A DNA stretch of 22,905 bases from a virus, in the IMG/VR virus record IMGVR_UViG_3300034012_000818, positions 1 to 22,905 of that record; one strand, written 5' to 3'. Positions 5,360-15,023 of this stretch are shown here, piece by piece (the first letter of the stretch is position 1; each line of letters starts with the position of its first letter). A program made the translations under genes and the position numbers. The notes beneath the pieces were generated by a model that saw only the letters and a program-made list of their open reading frames with translations, was not told where the DNA came from and did no database searches.

Positions 5360-6690
5360 TTCGTGAATGGTTGCGTTCTAAAATCCAGGCACTATTTCAG
5401 GTAGTATCAAACTCGAATTCGATTTTTACATCGAGCGAGGTGGAAGAGAACGTAAAAAACTTTTACAACTCACTCACTTTAATTTATCGGGGAATGAATA
5501 ACCTTTTAGAGTTTGGCAACTCAGGCATTCAAAACGTCATTACATACCGTCGCTCTTGGATCATGTCCAAGGATACCAAAGTATCATGCGAAGACGAGTA
5601 TGAGGCGGAAGAGGAGTGGATCGAGGCTTTCGAGCGTCATAATAAAATGAACATCCTTCGCCAACGGTTCGCGACAAACGGAGAGATTGAGGGCAAAGTT
5701 CTAATCGTTCTTATGGTTGACGCGGCTTCTCAAATGATCGTGCCTCGCGTGTTCAATTTCGTGGACTACTTCTATGAGATTGATTTTAACGAATTTGGCG
5801 AACCCGTTCAAGTCCGATACACGCTAGGAAATAAAGAATACAAAGTCAGACCAGACCGCTTTATTTATTGCACGATGACCATGTCCGAAAACTACCTAGA
5901 CCACAGAATCACACCTTCCTCGGTCTTTTTCGTGCTGGAGCAAATTATCAACTCAGACAAAGCATACCAGAATTGGCGCTACGTCAACGACCGATTCGCT
6001 AAGACTACTCCTATGTTTGAAATGGAGACTTGGCAAGACGCTTCTAAGGTGTCGCAAATCCTAAACGGTAAATCGGAAGACCTCACTAATCCACACGAAC
6101 GCGGAAAGAAATGGAAGGTAGGTGAGGGCTTGGCATTCGCAAAGGGTAAATCCTACACGCTCGACTTCAACGCCGACGGAATCGAATCGCTCAAAGGTGA
6201 GATTACGGCTTGCGCCCAAAAGATTAGCGGACATACTGGAATACCGATCTTTCTACTTGGCTTCCCAGAGCTCATAGGTGGCGGTCGTGCGACGGCTGAA
6301 GAGATGGCGGAAGCTATCACGAATAAAACAATCACCGAGCGGATAATTTGGGAAGAGAAGCTGAAAGAAGTCTATTCCAAAGCAATGATTCTTTCCAACG
6401 AATACTTTGGCACAACACTCGACCCCGATTGCATATCCGTTCGTATTCCACCTGTTTCCCTAGCCGAAATAAACTCCATGATCACAACTTACGAATCTGC
6501 GGTTGACAAGAAATACATTTCCAAGCGCACGTTCCGCGACATGCTTCCAGGCATCGACAACGATGAAGAAGAGGAGAGACTTGCGGAGGAAGCGGCGGCG
6601 GGTATGGCTATCATGACAGGCGCAATGAGTGGACTAGGCGACAACATGCCTATGCCTAAACCGCCAATCGAGGACGAAGAGGATGTCTAG
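5356..6690 (+). CDS. portal protein
   Basis: The 444-residue product has the composition and order of SPP1 gp6/HK97-type portals: an N-terminal segment with VITYRRSWIMSKD, a clip/stem region (NWRYVNDRFAKTTPMFEMET), and the typical stem-to-crown block KISGHTGIPIFLLGFP followed by GGGRATAEEM. It ends in an acidic Gly/Met/Pro-rich tail. As the dodecameric ring at one vertex it takes the terminase and neck proteins. No ATG is available at the 5' end; TTG 5356 follows GGCGGAAAG and overlaps a short upstream frame, so initiation may be inefficient. Upstream the frame closes at 5290-5292. The next gene overlaps by 8 nt. Confidence 0.88.
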   Translation: MIREWLRSKIQALFQVVSNSNSIFTSSEVEENVKNFYNSLTLIYRGMNNLLEFGNSGIQNVITYRRSWIMSKDTKVSCEDEYEAEEEWIEAFERHNKMNILRQRFATNGEIEGKVLIVLMVDAASQMIVPRVFNFVDYFYEIDFNEFGEPVQVRYTLGNKEYKVRPDRFIYCTMTMSENYLDHRITPSSVFFVLEQIINSDKAYQNWRYVNDRFAKTTPMFEMETWQDASKVSQILNGKSEDLTNPHERGKKWKVGEGLAFAKGKSYTLDFNADGIESLKGEITACAQKISGHTGIPIFLLGFPELIGGGRATAEEMAEAITNKTITERIIWEEKLKEVYSKAMILSNEYFGTTLDPDCISVRIPPVSLAEINSMITTYESAVDKKYISKRTFRDMLPGIDNDEEEERLAEEAAAGMAIMTGAMSGLGDNMPMPKPPIEDEEDV

Positions 6691-7039
6691 TATTTACAAC
6701 ATCAACATTGACCAAGGGTCTACATATCGTCTATCGGTAACTTATCAAGACCCAGATGGAAATCCTATAAGCAATTTCGGATACTCAGCAAACCTACAAG
6801 TCCGCACATCATATACCGCGACATCGGCAAATATCAACCTAACCTCTGCGCCTCCTTACGGGCTTCAGATGGGCGGTGCAAACGGAGTCATCGACATAAC
6901 TTTTCAACCGATTGACACGCAACTTCTAGAATATGTGAAACGAGCGTATGTTTATGACTTAGAACTTACATCGGGAAGCGGTGAAGTTACGCGTCTAATT
7001 GAAGGGACTTTCCTTTTATTCCCAGAGGCGACACGATGA
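6683..7039 (+). CDS. beta-sandwich structural protein (BppU-N/head-fibre-like)
   Basis: The 118-residue product starts MSSIYNINIDQGSTYRLSVT and goes on with DPDGNPISNFGYSANLQVRT, later IDITFQPIDTQLL and a C-terminal strand LIEGTFLLFPEATR. The pattern 'I-QG-T---v-y-D-dGnPi---gysa--qvR' is that of small Ig-like N-terminal domains in phage baseplate, neck or head-fibre proteins (BppU-N type). The likely role is a particle-anchoring piece for the following fibre gene, with which it shares an ATGA junction. GAGGAC (6670-6675) is 7 nt upstream. Confidence 0.6.
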   Translation: MSSIYNINIDQGSTYRLSVTYQDPDGNPISNFGYSANLQVRTSYTATSANINLTSAPPYGLQMGGANGVIDITFQPIDTQLLEYVKRAYVYDLELTSGSGEVTRLIEGTFLLFPEATR

Positions 7040-8451
7040 GCAATACCGTAATTGTAACAGAAACACCACAAGCTAGAATCGTTATCTCTTCGCCTGGTCC
7101 GCAAGGTCCACCTGGTGCGGGAGGTGGAGGCGGTGGCGCAGTAGATTCGGTCAACGGTCAAACGGGTGTCGTAGTTCTTGACACAGGCGACATTGCCGAT
7201 GTTACGGACAAGCGATATATAACCGACGCGCAACAAATCGTTTTAGGCAATACAAGCGGAACGAACACAGGGAATCAAACTTCCATTGTAGGCATAAGCG
7301 GAACACTCGCTCAATTCAACACGGCACTTTCAGACGCTGATTTTGCAACAGGCGGTGGCGTTATTACTGGCACAAGTTCTGGCACAAACACAGGCGATCA
7401 GTCTCTTGCGGGCTTGCAACCTCTCGACGCGGATTTGACTGCAATCGCGGCACTTACTCCATCGAATGACGATGTCATTCAAAGAAAGTCAGGTGCGTGG
7501 ACTAATCGCACAATGGCACAAGTCAAAACGGACCTAGCACTTACAAAATCCGACGTCGGACTAGGAAGCGTGGTAAACGCGGACACGACCACAACTGCAA
7601 ATATAACAGACTCATCAAATAAAAGATTCGTTACCGATGCACAGCAAACAGTAATCGGAAACACGTCTGGAACAAATACAGGCGACAACGCGACGAACAC
7701 GCTTTACTCAGGACTCGCGGCCTCGAAACAAGATACTCTCATTTCTGGGACGAACATAAAAACAATAAATTCCACTTCTCTACTTGGGTCAGGTGATATA
7801 TCAATTTCGGGGTCAGTCCCAGACGGTGACAAAGGCGACATCACAGTATCGGGTTCGGGAACGGTGTGGAGCATAGACAACGGAGTCATTGACCTTGCCA
7901 ATCTATCCGCAACGGGAACACCAGGCGGGTCAAACTTCCTACGAGGTGACAACACTTGGGCGACTCCATCGGGTTCGGGTGATATGGTTCTTGCAGACCC
8001 TCAGACAAACACGGGTGCAAAGACATTCCTTTCGGCTACTTTGCTTTTGCGAAATGTCGCTAATACTTTCTCTTCATTATTTACGAATACAAATACAGGC
8101 GCAAGAACCTACACCTTAAAAGACGCAGACGGAACGCTCGCATTCACAAGCGACATTCCAACGGTTCAATCGGGAATTGTGGAAGTGGATTTCGGAGCGA
8201 CACCAAGCTCGGAAGCCTCGGTAAGCGTAACAGGGCAAACGTCAATTCTTACGACCTCAGTCCCTCACGCATGGATAAGCGGACGCACAGCAAGCGACTC
8301 GTCGAACACTTCAAATGACCACTTACAAGCGGGCGCGGTTTGCCGCGTGGTATGCAGTGAGCCAACGGCGGCGACAGGGTTCACGATTACAGTTTATGTT
8401 CTCATTGGTTTTGCGACGGGAAAATTCAAATTAGATTATAGGTGGACTTAG
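7036..8451 (+). CDS. fibre protein with collagen-like and repeat segments
   Basis: The 471-residue product has a short N-terminal strand region, a collagen-like tract (SPGPQGPPGAGGGGGGAVDS, ~19-38) and the very common fibre phrase VNGQTGVVVLDT. A repeated shaft follows in which KR-[YF]-[IV]-TDAQQ-x-V-x-GNTSGTNTG occurs twice. The fibre motif GGSNFLRGDNTWATP is near residue 300, and a beta-rich C-terminal head (AWISGRTASDSSN, GFTITVYVLIGF) completes it. It is a trimeric adhesion fibre by family features. Its location between portal and capsid protease suggests a head or neck fibre rather than a tail fibre. Confidence 0.75.
   Translation: MSNTVIVTETPQARIVISSPGPQGPPGAGGGGGGAVDSVNGQTGVVVLDTGDIADVTDKRYITDAQQIVLGNTSGTNTGNQTSIVGISGTLAQFNTALSDADFATGGGVITGTSSGTNTGDQSLAGLQPLDADLTAIAALTPSNDDVIQRKSGAWTNRTMAQVKTDLALTKSDVGLGSVVNADTTTTANITDSSNKRFVTDAQQTVIGNTSGTNTGDNATNTLYSGLAASKQDTLISGTNIKTINSTSLLGSGDISISGSVPDGDKGDITVSGSGTVWSIDNGVIDLANLSATGTPGGSNFLRGDNTWATPSGSGDMVLADPQTNTGAKTFLSATLLLRNVANTFSSLFTNTNTGARTYTLKDADGTLAFTSDIPTVQSGIVEVDFGATPSSEASVSVTGQTSILTTSVPHAWISGRTASDSSNTSNDHLQAGAVCRVVCSEPTAATGFTITVYVLIGFATGKFKLDYRWT
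7201..7278 (+). repeat. fibre shaft repeat, copy 1
   Basis: This 26-codon unit encodes VTDKRYITDAQQIVLG plus NTSGTNTGNQ. The second copy is at 7612-7689. A shorter related GTNTGDQ unit lies at 7369-7401. The protein repeat is clear, while the DNA has diverged at many third positions, so the duplication is old or under selection. Confidence 0.7.
7612..7689 (+). repeat. fibre shaft repeat, copy 2
   Basis: This unit encodes SSNKRFVTDAQQTVIG plus NTSGTNTGDN and pairs with the unit at 7201-7278. The shared core is KR-aromatic-hydrophobic-TDAQQ and GNTSGTNTG. Confidence 0.7.
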
Positions 8452-9918
8452 ATGTCATTTTTAAACAAAATACTAGGAAATTCAAGCGGCAATGTCGCAG
8501 AAGTAAACTCCTCACACGAGTTAAAAGTTGTAACAAACGAAACGAGATCAAACATGACTACGTTTTATGAGAACGACAGCGGGATAAAGCTCGTCACTCG
8601 TTACCTGAAAAGTCCCGAGGTATCACAAGACTTTCGTTTGCGAGTGGGTCAAGATACTGTATTATTCGGTGACACTTTTAATTCGACAACTCAGAACACC
8701 TCAAATTGGAAGCACTCATTTACGACGATGACAATGACCCAAAGCGCGGGGTTCCTAAACGTAAACGCGGCGGGAACTTCTACCGTATCGGGCAACTATG
8801 CTTACCTTCAAACATGGCGTTATTTTCCTTTATTTGGAACAGCGCCTCTTGGGGTAGAAACGACTGCTCAATTCACAAACTATCCAACCGTCAACGAGGT
8901 TATCCAATGGGGTTTAGGTATCGCCACAGGCGCGGCAGAATGTATCGACGGGGTTTGGTGGGAAATGACCTCAACGGGCATTACGGGGTGTATTCGTTAT
9001 AACTCAGGCACAACCGCAAAACAAACCCTTATCGCAACGATTACGGATTTAGACCTCAACCAAAATTACAAGTTTGTAGTCGTAATCGGAGAAAGACAAG
9101 TAGACTATTGGATTGACGATGTTCTTTACGGAAGTCAAGACATGCCAGCGGGTCAAGGTCAGCCGTTTATAACCACCGCACTTCCTTATTTTGTCCAAAA
9201 GTACAATTCAGGAACAGTCGGGTCAACACCTAACACGATATTCAAAGTCGGTGATATATCCGTCACACTCATGGACTTAAGCACAAATCAAACTTGGGCA
9301 AACCAAATGTCGCAGCTTGGGCTTGGTATGCAAGGCCTCAACGGTGGAACCATGGGGAACGCTATGGTTCAATGGGCAAACACGACTTTACCAACGGCGG
9401 CGGCGGCTACAAATACCACAGCTGCACTTGGAGCTTTTGTGGGTGGAATCTTCCAAATGAACGCGCCCGCAACATCGACCACAGACGTTATCGTTTCTTC
9501 TTGGCAGAACCCAATTGGTGGCGTAAACCAAACGCCAAGAACTTTAAAGCTAAGAGGTATGAAAGTGGATTGTGTGAATACGGTCGCGGCGGTGGCTACC
9601 ACAGGCACGACATTCGCGGTCGCAGTCGCATGGGGTGCGCAACAAGCAAACCTCGCCGCCTCTCTCGCGGGGACTGAGACAGGCTCATTTATTAACAACA
9701 CGACAAAGATAAGAAGAATACAACCTCTAGGCGTGATCTCGTTCCCAGTTGGCGCGGCTATTGGCGCGCAGGCGACGGGCATTCAGTTTGACTTTGAAGC
9801 GCCACTCGTTATCAATCCAGGGGAATACCTACAAGTGATTGCAAAGCCTCTCTTGGGAACAGCGACAGCGACGGAAGTCTTTGTCTGGATTATTTCGCCA
9901 AACCTATACCACGAATGA
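8452..9918 (+). CDS. large beta-rich virion protein, possible fibre or spike
   Basis: The 488-residue product starts MSFLNKILGNSSGNVAEVNS, a form often seen in virion proteins beside collagen-like fibres. The middle (~70-275) has DTFNSTTQNTSNWK, a repeated pattern of strands, and VVVIGERQVDYWIDDVLYGS; the latter resembles a concanavalin/LamG-type jelly roll, where a 'v-v-wWiDg' strand is typical. The C-terminal half is Ala/Thr/Gly rich (LPTAAAATNTTAALGAFVGG, FEAPLVINPGEYLQVIAKPL). It has no catalytic motif. It follows the fibre gene directly (TAG then ATG) with GGTGG upstream, and overlaps the protease gene by ATGA. A glycan-binding surface protein is the best guess. Confidence 0.55.
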   Translation: MSFLNKILGNSSGNVAEVNSSHELKVVTNETRSNMTTFYENDSGIKLVTRYLKSPEVSQDFRLRVGQDTVLFGDTFNSTTQNTSNWKHSFTTMTMTQSAGFLNVNAAGTSTVSGNYAYLQTWRYFPLFGTAPLGVETTAQFTNYPTVNEVIQWGLGIATGAAECIDGVWWEMTSTGITGCIRYNSGTTAKQTLIATITDLDLNQNYKFVVVIGERQVDYWIDDVLYGSQDMPAGQGQPFITTALPYFVQKYNSGTVGSTPNTIFKVGDISVTLMDLSTNQTWANQMSQLGLGMQGLNGGTMGNAMVQWANTTLPTAAAATNTTAALGAFVGGIFQMNAPATSTTDVIVSSWQNPIGGVNQTPRTLKLRGMKVDCVNTVAAVATTGTTFAVAVAWGAQQANLAASLAGTETGSFINNTTKIRRIQPLGVISFPVGAAIGAQATGIQFDFEAPLVINPGEYLQVIAKPLLGTATATEVFVWIISPNLYHE

Positions 9919-11060
9919 TAATACGCGGTCAAATTCAATCATTCAGCAAAGACGACATTCGTAAATATGTTGCACAACCGATCATGGGAAACATTATCTC
10001 AAAAGATGCTCACCCGTTATTCAAAAAATACTCGGTTGCTCACGAAGGTGTTTCACGTCCGAAAGTCGTAGGCCAGGGAACGAAAGAAATCTCGTGGGGA
10101 CGTAAGGCGATTAAGTCGGTCACAGATGCAATCTCTATGGGAATCCAATGTATCGCTGGTCACACAAAAGACAACATCAAGCGCGGAGAGAGGGCAGTTG
10201 CTCAAGTTGTCGGCAAGGGAGAGGAAATCATAAATGGCGTTCTTAACTCGGTCATCGTTGCATATTTTCCAGACAAAGCCGATTCCGATTATGATGTCAT
10301 ATCAATGGAAGCAGACCTGGACTGGACTGAAAACGGTTTTGGTATGGGAATAGCGGAGGGCATTACAGCGCTTTCCAGATTTGCACTTGGTAAGTCAGAA
10401 AACGACATACCCGCGTTTCAGGACGCAAAACTACTCGCATCAATTCAATGTTTTGATGAAAAAGAAAGTCCTAGCGAACTAGGCAAAGGAAAGAAAATGG
10501 ATTTAACAACCGCGCCATTCGGCGACATCGTGGCGGAAATAAAACGCCGTCAGACATTCCCATCACAGATTTTTTCGCGTGATGAGATCATAGGAGAACC
10601 CGTAACAGAAGCAAACGGACAGATCAGTTTCCGAGGTGGAGACGCACAGATAACAAGCTATCTTTTAAAGAAGCTACCTTCACCGGAGGACGTAAGAAAA
10701 GAATCACAAGCAAAGATTATTGAACTCGAAACCAAAGTGAAAGAACTTGAGCCAAAAGTATCTGAGCTTTCGACGATCAAACTAGAGAACGCGCGTTTCA
10801 CGGCAAAGACCGACATTTTAGAATATGCGAAGACAAAAAAACTAACCGAAAAACAAATTAAGTGGATCGAAGAAAACCTTGACAAATATTCTCCAAGTGA
10901 GAACAAAGAAGAGTCAATAAAGACTTTCGTCGATGCCCAGACAGAAGACTTTAAACGAATCCAAAAACTCTTTCCCGTGTCGGCTGAAAACCCACCAACG
11001 AAAGACTCCGAAGCAAGTCCTGAAACGACCGAATTCGAAATCAAACACGAAATGTATTAG
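9915..11060 (+). CDS. predicted prohead protease-scaffold fusion
   Basis: The 381-residue product sits just before the decoration and major capsid genes. Residues ~75-135 contain IQCIAGHTKDN (H83) and, 47 residues on, DVISMEADL (S130). A conserved His followed about 50 residues later by a Ser before 'xEA' is the layout of HK97-class prohead serine proteases; between them VVGKGEEIINGVLNSVIVAY gives the expected strands. Residues ~255-325 are a charged coiled coil (IIELETKVKELEPKVSELS), and the acidic Pro/Ser/Glu-rich tail is typical of phage scaffolds. I infer one polypeptide serving as maturation protease and scaffold. The third catalytic residue is not identified. A plain scaffolding protein is the alternative. 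Confidence 0.62.
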   Translation: MIIRGQIQSFSKDDIRKYVAQPIMGNIISKDAHPLFKKYSVAHEGVSRPKVVGQGTKEISWGRKAIKSVTDAISMGIQCIAGHTKDNIKRGERAVAQVVGKGEEIINGVLNSVIVAYFPDKADSDYDVISMEADLDWTENGFGMGIAEGITALSRFALGKSENDIPAFQDAKLLASIQCFDEKESPSELGKGKKMDLTTAPFGDIVAEIKRRQTFPSQIFSRDEIIGEPVTEANGQISFRGGDAQITSYLLKKLPSPEDVRKESQAKIIELETKVKELEPKVSELSTIKLENARFTAKTDILEYAKTKKLTEKQIKWIEENLDKYSPSENKEESIKTFVDAQTEDFKRIQKLFPVSAENPPTKDSEASPETTEFEIKHEMY

Positions 11061-13040: not shown

Positions 13041-15023
13041 GTGACCTTTGAAGAATTCACCAATTCGCGTCTCGAATACTTACAGAAACAACTCGATGAG
13101 CCAATCCGTATCATGCAATCCGCACTCACTCGTTCAATTCAAGACGAGCTAACCGAAGGCGAACGTGACCGACTTTTATCCGTTATAAATTTCCAATACG
13201 AAACAATTCAAACAACCTTAGACGCGTTCACAGCGTCAATTCTTCCAGGCGCTTACAACTCAGGCGTTCAAATATCCATCGATGAAATGAAACGCTTCGG
13301 CAATATCGTAGCCGATAACACTCGGGATATGAAGGCAATCAATACACTTATCGCAGATGCACAGAAAGACTTCCGTCGTGCTATTGGAAACGGGCAAGAG
13401 GCGGTAGGTGACTTTTTCAAATACTTTTCCAAACAAGGCCGACTCACCGAATCTGAGATTTCCAATGCCGTGGCGAAGGGACTCATTGAGCAAGGGACGG
13501 GTTATGGTGCAAAACAATTCACACGTAAAGCAATCACCGACCGAGGTATTCAAATATTTGACCAAGCATCACTCGACCGATACGTAAATAAGAAACTATT
13601 GCAAGGCTACTCGGAGAAACTACTCGATGGGAAGGTGATGCAAATTATTAATAAGAACGGCAAGGTGATGAATTTCCGAGTCAATACCTATGCCGATCTA
13701 GTGAGCCGAACACGAATAGGCGAGGCACAAGTCCAAGGCACGATCGACATTGCAAGGAAGAACGGGATCAAACTTTTTAAGGTAACAAAGCACAATACAA
13801 AATCCGAGATATGTAGACCGCACGAAGGGCAAATACTATCGACCGACAAGAACGATCCAAAATATGATTGGATCAATGGAACAGGCGAACAAGGTGAATC
13901 AAACCGACCAGTATATCATCCGAACTGCTTAAGTAAAGATACCGAAATCTACACATCGCAAGGATGGGTTCTTTGTTCGGAAATTACCAAAGATCAGATC
14001 GTCATGTCGCTCGACCCAAATACTTTAAATTTAGAGTTTTTGCCAATTGTAAAGATTCATAAACAAAAGCACGAAAGGCTATTGCACTTTCAAAATATAT
14101 CGTGCGACTTCTTATTTACGTTCAATCATAGGATGTTTTATCAATCTCAATGGGATGCGCGTTTTAATAAAAAGCGGTGGCAGTTTGCAGAAGCGCAAGA
14201 ATTTAAAGAGAAAAGCAGTAAGATATTTTATCGCTCATCGGATTGGCAAAGTGGAGAAACTAAAGAAATCAGGATTGCAGATCAAAGAATAGATTTTTCT
14301 GATTATTGCAAATTGATGGGGTGGTATCTTTCCGAAGGAAGTGTAGACAATTATCTCAAGCGTGTCGTCATATCTCAATCTAAACAAGCAAACCCAGAAA
14401 AATACGAGATGGTTCATTCACTCCTAGATAAAATCGGAATTCAACACTCATGTCAGCCAGAGGGATTAATATTGCCTAGAAAGTTGTATGATTATTTCAA
14501 ACAGTTTGGCAAGTCATTTGATAAGTTTATACCAGATGAAATCATGAACGCGCCAAAAGAAGACATAAGAAACTTTTTGGATGCGTTTGTTTTGGGAGAT
14601 GGTAACACAAAGAAAGGAAAGTTTTGGAAAGGTTACCAATTCAGAGATTCAAAGCTAATCACTACGTCATCGCGAAGAATGGCGGACAGTTTAGGCGAAT
14701 TGATTATCAAAGCGGGCTACTCGGTCACTTATAAACTGGCAAAAAACAAAGGTAAATCTGTCAAACACTGGAACGGAACGTATGTCACTAATTACGACCA
14801 ATGGCACATTTACATAAACGATTCGCAAAAATCGACGATGCAAAAAATGAAGGTGTCTGAAGTTTATTATAATGATTTTGCTTATTGCGTTTCCTTACCA
14901 AAATTCCATACTATTTTTATTAGGCGAAACGGTCGCACGTTATGGACTGGAAATTGTCTTCACAGACTTATGCCATACGTCGATACTGGTGACTTTAAAT
15001 TCCGTCCACTAAGGAGCGCATAA
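13041..15023 (+). CDS. SPP1 gp7/Mu F-type minor head protein, interrupted by an intein
   Basis: The precursor is 660 residues: N-extein 1-295, intein 296-638, C-extein 639-660. Joined, the exteins give a 317-residue minor head protein. The C-terminal part of the N-extein has the family core: YADLVSRTRIGEAQVQGTID, KHNTKSEICRPHEGQ and VYHPN. After splicing the junction reads HPN-CLHRLMPY, matching the family's HPNCxHR motif. These proteins enter the prohead with the portal and help packaging or ejection. It starts at GTG 13041, two bases after the previous stop, without a clear ribosome site; the frame is closed upstream at 12990-12992. Unusually it lies in the connector block, not beside the portal gene. 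Without splicing the Cys/His cluster stays split, so function probably depends on the intein. Confidence 0.92.
   Translation: MTFEEFTNSRLEYLQKQLDEPIRIMQSALTRSIQDELTEGERDRLLSVINFQYETIQTTLDAFTASILPGAYNSGVQISIDEMKRFGNIVADNTRDMKAINTLIADAQKDFRRAIGNGQEAVGDFFKYFSKQGRLTESEISNAVAKGLIEQGTGYGAKQFTRKAITDRGIQIFDQASLDRYVNKKLLQGYSEKLLDGKVMQIINKNGKVMNFRVNTYADLVSRTRIGEAQVQGTIDIARKNGIKLFKVTKHNTKSEICRPHEGQILSTDKNDPKYDWINGTGEQGESNRPVYHPNCLSKDTEIYTSQGWVLCSEITKDQIVMSLDPNTLNLEFLPIVKIHKQKHERLLHFQNISCDFLFTFNHRMFYQSQWDARFNKKRWQFAEAQEFKEKSSKIFYRSSDWQSGETKEIRIADQRIDFSDYCKLMGWYLSEGSVDNYLKRVVISQSKQANPEKYEMVHSLLDKIGIQHSCQPEGLILPRKLYDYFKQFGKSFDKFIPDEIMNAPKEDIRNFLDAFVLGDGNTKKGKFWKGYQFRDSKLITTSSRRMADSLGELIIKAGYSVTYKLAKNKGKSVKHWNGTYVTNYDQWHIYINDSQKSTMQKMKVSEVYYNDFAYCVSLPKFHTIFIRRNGRTLWTGNCLHRLMPYVDTGDFKFRPLRSA
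13926..14954 (+). other. intein with LAGLIDADG homing endonuclease domain
   Basis: This in-frame insertion of 343 codons has all expected blocks. The first residue is Cys in CLSKDTEIYTSQGW (block A). Block B has T65-x-x-H68 in FTFNHRMF. Two LAGLIDADG-type helices are LMGWYLSEGS (130-139, acidic E137) and LDAFVLGDGN (218-227, acidic D225). Block F/G is AYCVSLPKFHTIFIRRNGRT followed by LWTGN, ending in Asn, with Cys as the +1 extein residue. So this is a class 1 intein with probable self-splicing and homing. The usual penultimate His is replaced by Gly, as in a known subset of inteins with an 'RRNG...TGN' end. Codons are visibly more AT-rich than the exteins, which fits transfer from elsewhere. 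Confidence 0.95.

Follow-up and report, generated by a model that had tools for sequence, protein, structure and literature searches.

A full-length intein within the HPNC motif of a phage minor head protein, at an insertion site that recurs among distant phages

The gene described here lies in a stretch of viral DNA of 22,905 nucleotides (IMG/VR record IMGVR_UViG_3300034012_000818), all of which was analysed and which we call the window. Terminase, portal-like, capsid, neck and tail genes are its neighbours, by which the locus can be recognized as a tailed-phage head module. Adjoining the terminase, positions 480-1337 encode a member of the TET-associated glycosyltransferase family (PF20691; phrog_842, beta-glucosyl-HMC-alpha-glucosyltransferase, 3.9e-68), so that the DNA of this phage may be modified. 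The portal-like and capsid genes are separated by three genes (6683-9918), one of which resembles tail fibre assembly proteins (phrog_1084, phrog_3304); at a syntenic locus (L011) the homologue of window 9915-11060 comes immediately after the portal-like match. Rfam and tRNA features were looked for across the window and none were found. The gene itself is made up of the following parts:

13041..15023, plus strand: precursor reading frame, minor head protein with intein, 660 aa, GTG start
13041..13925, plus strand: N-extein, 295 aa, with HPN at its end; minor capsid / Mu F-like, scoring 27.4 bits with PF06152 when taken alone and matching phrog_4611 (minor head protein)
13917..13925, plus strand: HPN, the upstream half of the insertion site, its C following at 14955-14957; H and C invariant in 36 joined exteins, motif uninterrupted in 31 relatives
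13926..14954, plus strand: full-length intein with LAGLIDADG endonuclease, 343 aa, residues 296-638 of the precursor
14955..15020, plus strand: C-extein, 22 aa, starting with the Cys+1 of CLHR; joined score up to 38.8 bits

The insert at 13926-14954, CLSKDTEIYTSQGW ... RRNGRTLWTGN, is flanked by HPN and CLHR, and the joined extein (residues 1-295 plus 639-660) has 317 aa. An earlier note on this DNA had described an intein exactly here, between the N and the C of HPN/C in a minor head protein of the Mu F type, with Cys1, a TxxH motif (TFNH), two LAGLIDADG motifs, a terminal Asn and Cys+1, and this description holds. The borders, residues 296-638, were recovered independently by aligning distant phage inteins without the borders being supplied (E down to 4e-16). 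When the whole reading frame was compared with phage records by tblastn, the matches were inteins in genes for ribonucleotide reductase, terminase, methylase and peptidase; the majority start at residue 296 or a few residues earlier and stop at about 638. The intein also has a GC content of 0.367, the minimum among 438 sliding 1029-nt windows of the sequence. Its motifs are listed below, with conservation scored over 26 inteins (that of the window included) inserted at the equivalent point of other genes, HPx/C, where the slash marks the insertion:

13926..13973, plus strand: block A, Cys1 and N-terminal splicing motif CLSKDTEIYTSQGWVL; Cys1, D5, T6 and G13 invariant in the 26 inteins
14118..14129, plus strand: block B, TFNH (TxxH), intein residues 65-68; H68 invariant, T65 nearly invariant
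14313..14339, plus strand: first LAGLIDADG motif, LMGWYLSEG, intein residues 130-138; helix 124-137 in the model
14574..14603, plus strand: second LAGLIDADG motif, FLDAFVLGDG (FVLGDG at 221-226); D225 and G226 invariant in the 26 inteins; helix 211-225 in the model
14886..14888, plus strand: block F Cys; relatives inserted at this site have either Cys or Asp here
14949..14954, plus strand: terminal Gly-Asn, block G; N343 invariant, G342 nearly invariant

The two LAGLIDADG motifs are intact and keep their acidic residues. The window intein scores 18.3 with the Pfam family LAGLIDADG_3, that is, below its cutoff of 22.5, and 19 of the 26 inteins in the set match this family with E <= 0.01. The usual penultimate residue of an intein is His. 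Here it is Gly instead, and block F has a Cys; both features are normal for this group of phage inteins. As to the class, for which we have used the definitions in PMC7664689, the nucleophile Cys1 is present together with only a partial WCT triplet (Met, Cys, Thr), which is the class 1 situation. Class 3 does not apply, as Cys1 is there and Trp is absent, with a Met at the block B position two past the His. On its sequence the window intein is therefore class 1 by Cys1, as the earlier note had it, although the block F Cys and the block G Thr are two of the three class 3 markers, and their presence alongside Cys1 without the Trp leaves the order of the chemical steps unfixed.

An AlphaFold model made with the alignment of the 26 inteins has the HINT plus LAGLIDADG fold (pLDDT 95.0, pTM 0.92), and its best 16 fold matches in the PDB are all homing-endonuclease inteins, e.g., TliVMA, PI-SceI and PI-PfuI (E 1.7e-17 to 3.5e-9). 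The profile of the same alignment matches PI-PkoII, TliVMA and other inteins by sequence. In the AlphaFold model of the whole precursor the extein was poorly modelled (mean pLDDT 75, pTM 0.56), and that model was left unused.

Joining the exteins lifts the score with PF06152 (Phage_min_cap2) from 26.5 to 38.8 bits (cutoff 26.3), with phrog_581 from 37.5 to 54.3 and with phrog_4611 from 148.6 to 167, and after joining each of the three matches spans the junction. The gene had been proposed to belong to the SPP1 gp7/Mu F families. It is of the Mu F type as proposed, and the joined extein passes PF06152; with TIGR01641 (SPP1 gp7, NCBIfam) the unspliced protein scores 14.7 bits against a cutoff of 39.65. 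Relatives in Leptospira plasmids or prophages, with extein identity up to 36%, have no interruption. An alignment of these Leptospira relatives found 31 relatives in IMG/VR, and every one of them is uninterrupted at the insertion point, where the motif is HPxC (HRNC or HNNC in three), just as had been anticipated for homologues of the gene. The syntenic locus mentioned above (L011) shares the head gene order of the window and has a capsid protein 43% identical, and the intein is absent from it. No intein-free relative more than 50% identical to the window extein was found, and the empty-site comparison is one of exteins that are ca. 31-36% identical. Neither the whole protein nor the N-extein had a close relative in viral contigs by single-sequence search, and none turned up in a bacterial genome collection, for which the extein alignment and the intein served as queries.

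There is a reading of these data without any protein splicing, namely that the insert is a normal conserved domain of the head family, or else a HINT domain that cleaves itself without ligating, like the intein-like domains of bacteria. The HINT fold is indeed common to intein-like and hedgehog domains, and these appear among the weaker fold matches; however, the best matches are full-length inteins with endonuclease, none of the 31 relatives has the domain, Cys+1 is retained in the HPx/C inteins for which the downstream junction was read, and the family scores improve once the extein is reassembled across the junction. We find this reading scarcely credible. Given the empty-site and fold evidence, we reject an ordinary head-protein domain, a chance reading frame and an assembly artefact.

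Three scans of IMG/VR were carried out with degenerate DNA patterns for the junctions, and duplicates and other genes were removed. They yielded 35 further distinct loci in which the insert starts at the Cys of HPx/C and ends before a Cys (HAN/C in L132). These, together with two published single cases, do not bear out the impression of rarity that the earlier note gave for inteins in head morphogenesis proteins. Among the 36 joined exteins (window included), Phage_Mu_F is found in 23 and Phage_min_cap2 in 12, some of them having both, and a single PHROG head family matches as many as 28 of the 36. Across this set, no variation is seen in one upstream Cys or in the HPxC His and Cys, which bears out the claim that few sites in the family are as well conserved. 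Most of the inserts at HPx/C are 335-354 aa long with the endonuclease present, but there are also inteins of 132-156 aa without endonuclease (L072, L094, L101, L105, and L107), and three inserts end in HN and resemble another intein type (L049, L056, and L071). Among annotated isolate phages, the intein matches were, for those listed, all in other genes.

Inteins were also seen at other places. A second recurrent site in a head-assembly gene is the GELxHP motif of prohead protease genes (L080, L083, L005, and L046), and C-junction matches of the GELxHP type are found in L110, L118, L122, L125, L128, L133, and L135. The joined extein of L080 matches Peptidase_S77 with 80.8 bits, and the remaining prohead protease loci have the same or a similar junction sequence. 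Helicase-motif inteins follow GHPx in L088, L090, L093, L095 (AHPK), and L106, and the joined L090 matches SNF2-rel_dom. In Bacteroides phage BF766P4, the product of L004:4279-5697, a "hypothetical protein", is an M15 peptidase whose intein follows SDH. Gordonia phage Woes has an annotated portal protein intein, and Gordonia phage Twinkle a weak intein-like match (E 3) in its tape measure protein (L045/L047).

A tree was built from 39 full-length inteins. A branch in it (91/95; seen in 94% of bootstrap trees) separates the 28 at HPx/C from the other 11, the only inteins compared that come from other genes (prohead protease, terminase, methylase, peptidase and others), and the scan patterns pick particular block A and junction sequences, a sampling bias that affects this clade and the similarity figures given here. 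The window intein pairs in this tree with that of L064 (91/93; 42% identity) and groups with inteins of distant phages, while in a quick tree of the exteins the window extein sits in a 15-member clade (support 99) whose other members are intein-free. This extein tree requires at least eight changes of intein state. Over 25 intein-containing loci (300 pairs) the mean identity is 36% for the inteins and 19% for the exteins, and in none of the 300 pairs is the extein more similar than the intein, a difference for which stronger constraint on the inteins could account in part. L140 and L063 are 63% identical, and the site in L140 is empty. In the endonuclease region of a close pair, L100 and L109, dN is 0.018 and dS 0.142, in other words, there is purifying selection. 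No clear gradient that would be a signature of co-conversion was seen near the insert in L063 vs. L140 or in L100 vs. L109. Taking together the split in the tree, the changes of state in the extein tree, the identity gap, the empty site of L140 and the dN/dS values, we favour the view that the HPx/C inteins are a mobile, site-specific lineage, a functional element that would move between phages rather than being simply inherited.

The alternative is that the intein is competent for splicing while its endonuclease is dead or no longer homing, so that what we see is an inherited passenger, kept since precise loss is rare. Endonucleases do get lost at this site, as the short inteins illustrate, and the weak correlation between intein and extein distances (Spearman 0.22, p 0.006) is consistent with some vertical inheritance. 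In the window intein, however, the acidic residues of the LAGLIDADG motifs have been preserved and the fold is confident throughout, and in the related pair the endonuclease region is under purifying selection. A mere passenger therefore seems to us rather unlikely.

We consider it very probable that what lies between the Asn and the Cys of HPNC is an intact-looking full-length intein, predicted to splice and to home, and one of an HPx/C lineage that has probably spread horizontally. After translation the HINT domain would excise itself by an acyl shift at Cys1, transfer to Cys+1 and cyclisation of Asn343, the two exteins being ligated into the mature 317-residue protein; the unspliced precursor would presumably be inactive. 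The LAGLIDADG domain, for its part, is expected to cut intein-free alleles at the same conserved site, where repair would copy the intein in. The lineage is seen at this one site across many distant phages.

One could also think of a regulatory intein, in which splicing awaits a signal (e.g., redox, via Cys1 and the block F Cys) and so times head assembly or the loading of the minor head protein, the same idea having been put forward by Ward et al. (2004; PMC517821) for the Methylococcus Mu-like prophage. The insertion at the most conserved motif of a head assembly protein and the co-occurrence of the two Cys would agree with it, but block F is Asp in many HPx/C inteins, so the thiol pair is not conserved, and many relatives of the gene are intein-free, a distribution for which a parasitic element accounts without any benefit. 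Regulation of head assembly by splicing is speculation, and so is the tie between the two that the earlier note had drawn; a regulatory intein here appears very improbable. A broader scenario, which we also take to be improbable, is that HPx/C is an old recurrent site with its own intein lineage jumping between phage families, and that in some phages, including that of the window, conditional splicing times capsid assembly; this would be a parasite working in morphogenesis.

Discussion of phage inteins has usually centred on terminases and DNA enzymes. The window intein alone is an ordinary example, unsurprising to a specialist, and an intein in a Mu F-type or minor head protein was already known; the recurrent HPx/C site and its lineage are apparently new and the part worth following. 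No description of HPx/C as a recurrent intein site was found in the open-access literature, with most subscription journals lying outside this coverage. Literature on MuF and inteins had nothing relevant among the matches listed, and a paper on MuF polymorphic toxins makes no mention of inteins. Portal protein inteins are listed in a survey of mycobacteriophages (PMC5050341, 2016). A lineage at one motif, with full-length, endonuclease-less and empty alleles at the same site, provides a natural series for the study of homing between phages. There is also a consequence for annotation, as such genes are read as head proteins of ca. 400-1100 aa and the split motif makes the extein family easy to miss.

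Among the systems with which the window intein can be compared, L064 (IMG/VR contig 2513237152_000001), L055, L057, L120, and L067 share its insertion point and architecture, with inteins 36-42% identical, but their exteins have only 16-28% identity with that of the window; that of L067 is a Phage_Mu_F protein whereas the window extein is a Phage_min_cap2. The inteins of terminase, methylase and ribonucleotide reductase genes in Gordonia GMA6, EBPR siphovirus 2, Mycobacterium Dorothy and Salmonella phages have, like the window's, Cys1, TxxH, the block F Cys and Gly-Asn, but belong to other genes and sites, are 21-25% identical and fall outside the HPx/C lineage. The solved inteins TliVMA (7QSU), PI-SceI (1VDE), and PI-PfuI (1DQ3) have the HINT and two-motif LAGLIDADG fold in common with it, at 10-14% identity and in cellular host genes. 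Two published cases come closest by gene. Ward et al. (2004; PMC517821) described an intein in gp30, the F protein of a Mu-like prophage in Methylococcus capsulatus Bath. This intein, too, is inside a Mu F-type head assembly protein; compared by description, it reportedly has no recognisable endonuclease and is nearest to archaeal IF-2 inteins, unlike the window intein, which is full-length and akin to the other phage inteins at HPx/C. The minor head protein of the cryoconite phage variant AB09 (Bellas et al., 2020; PMC7468147) has, as in the window, an intein with a homing endonuclease, one that shows presence/absence variation; compared by description, it is of 0.8 kb and the window intein of 1.03 kb.
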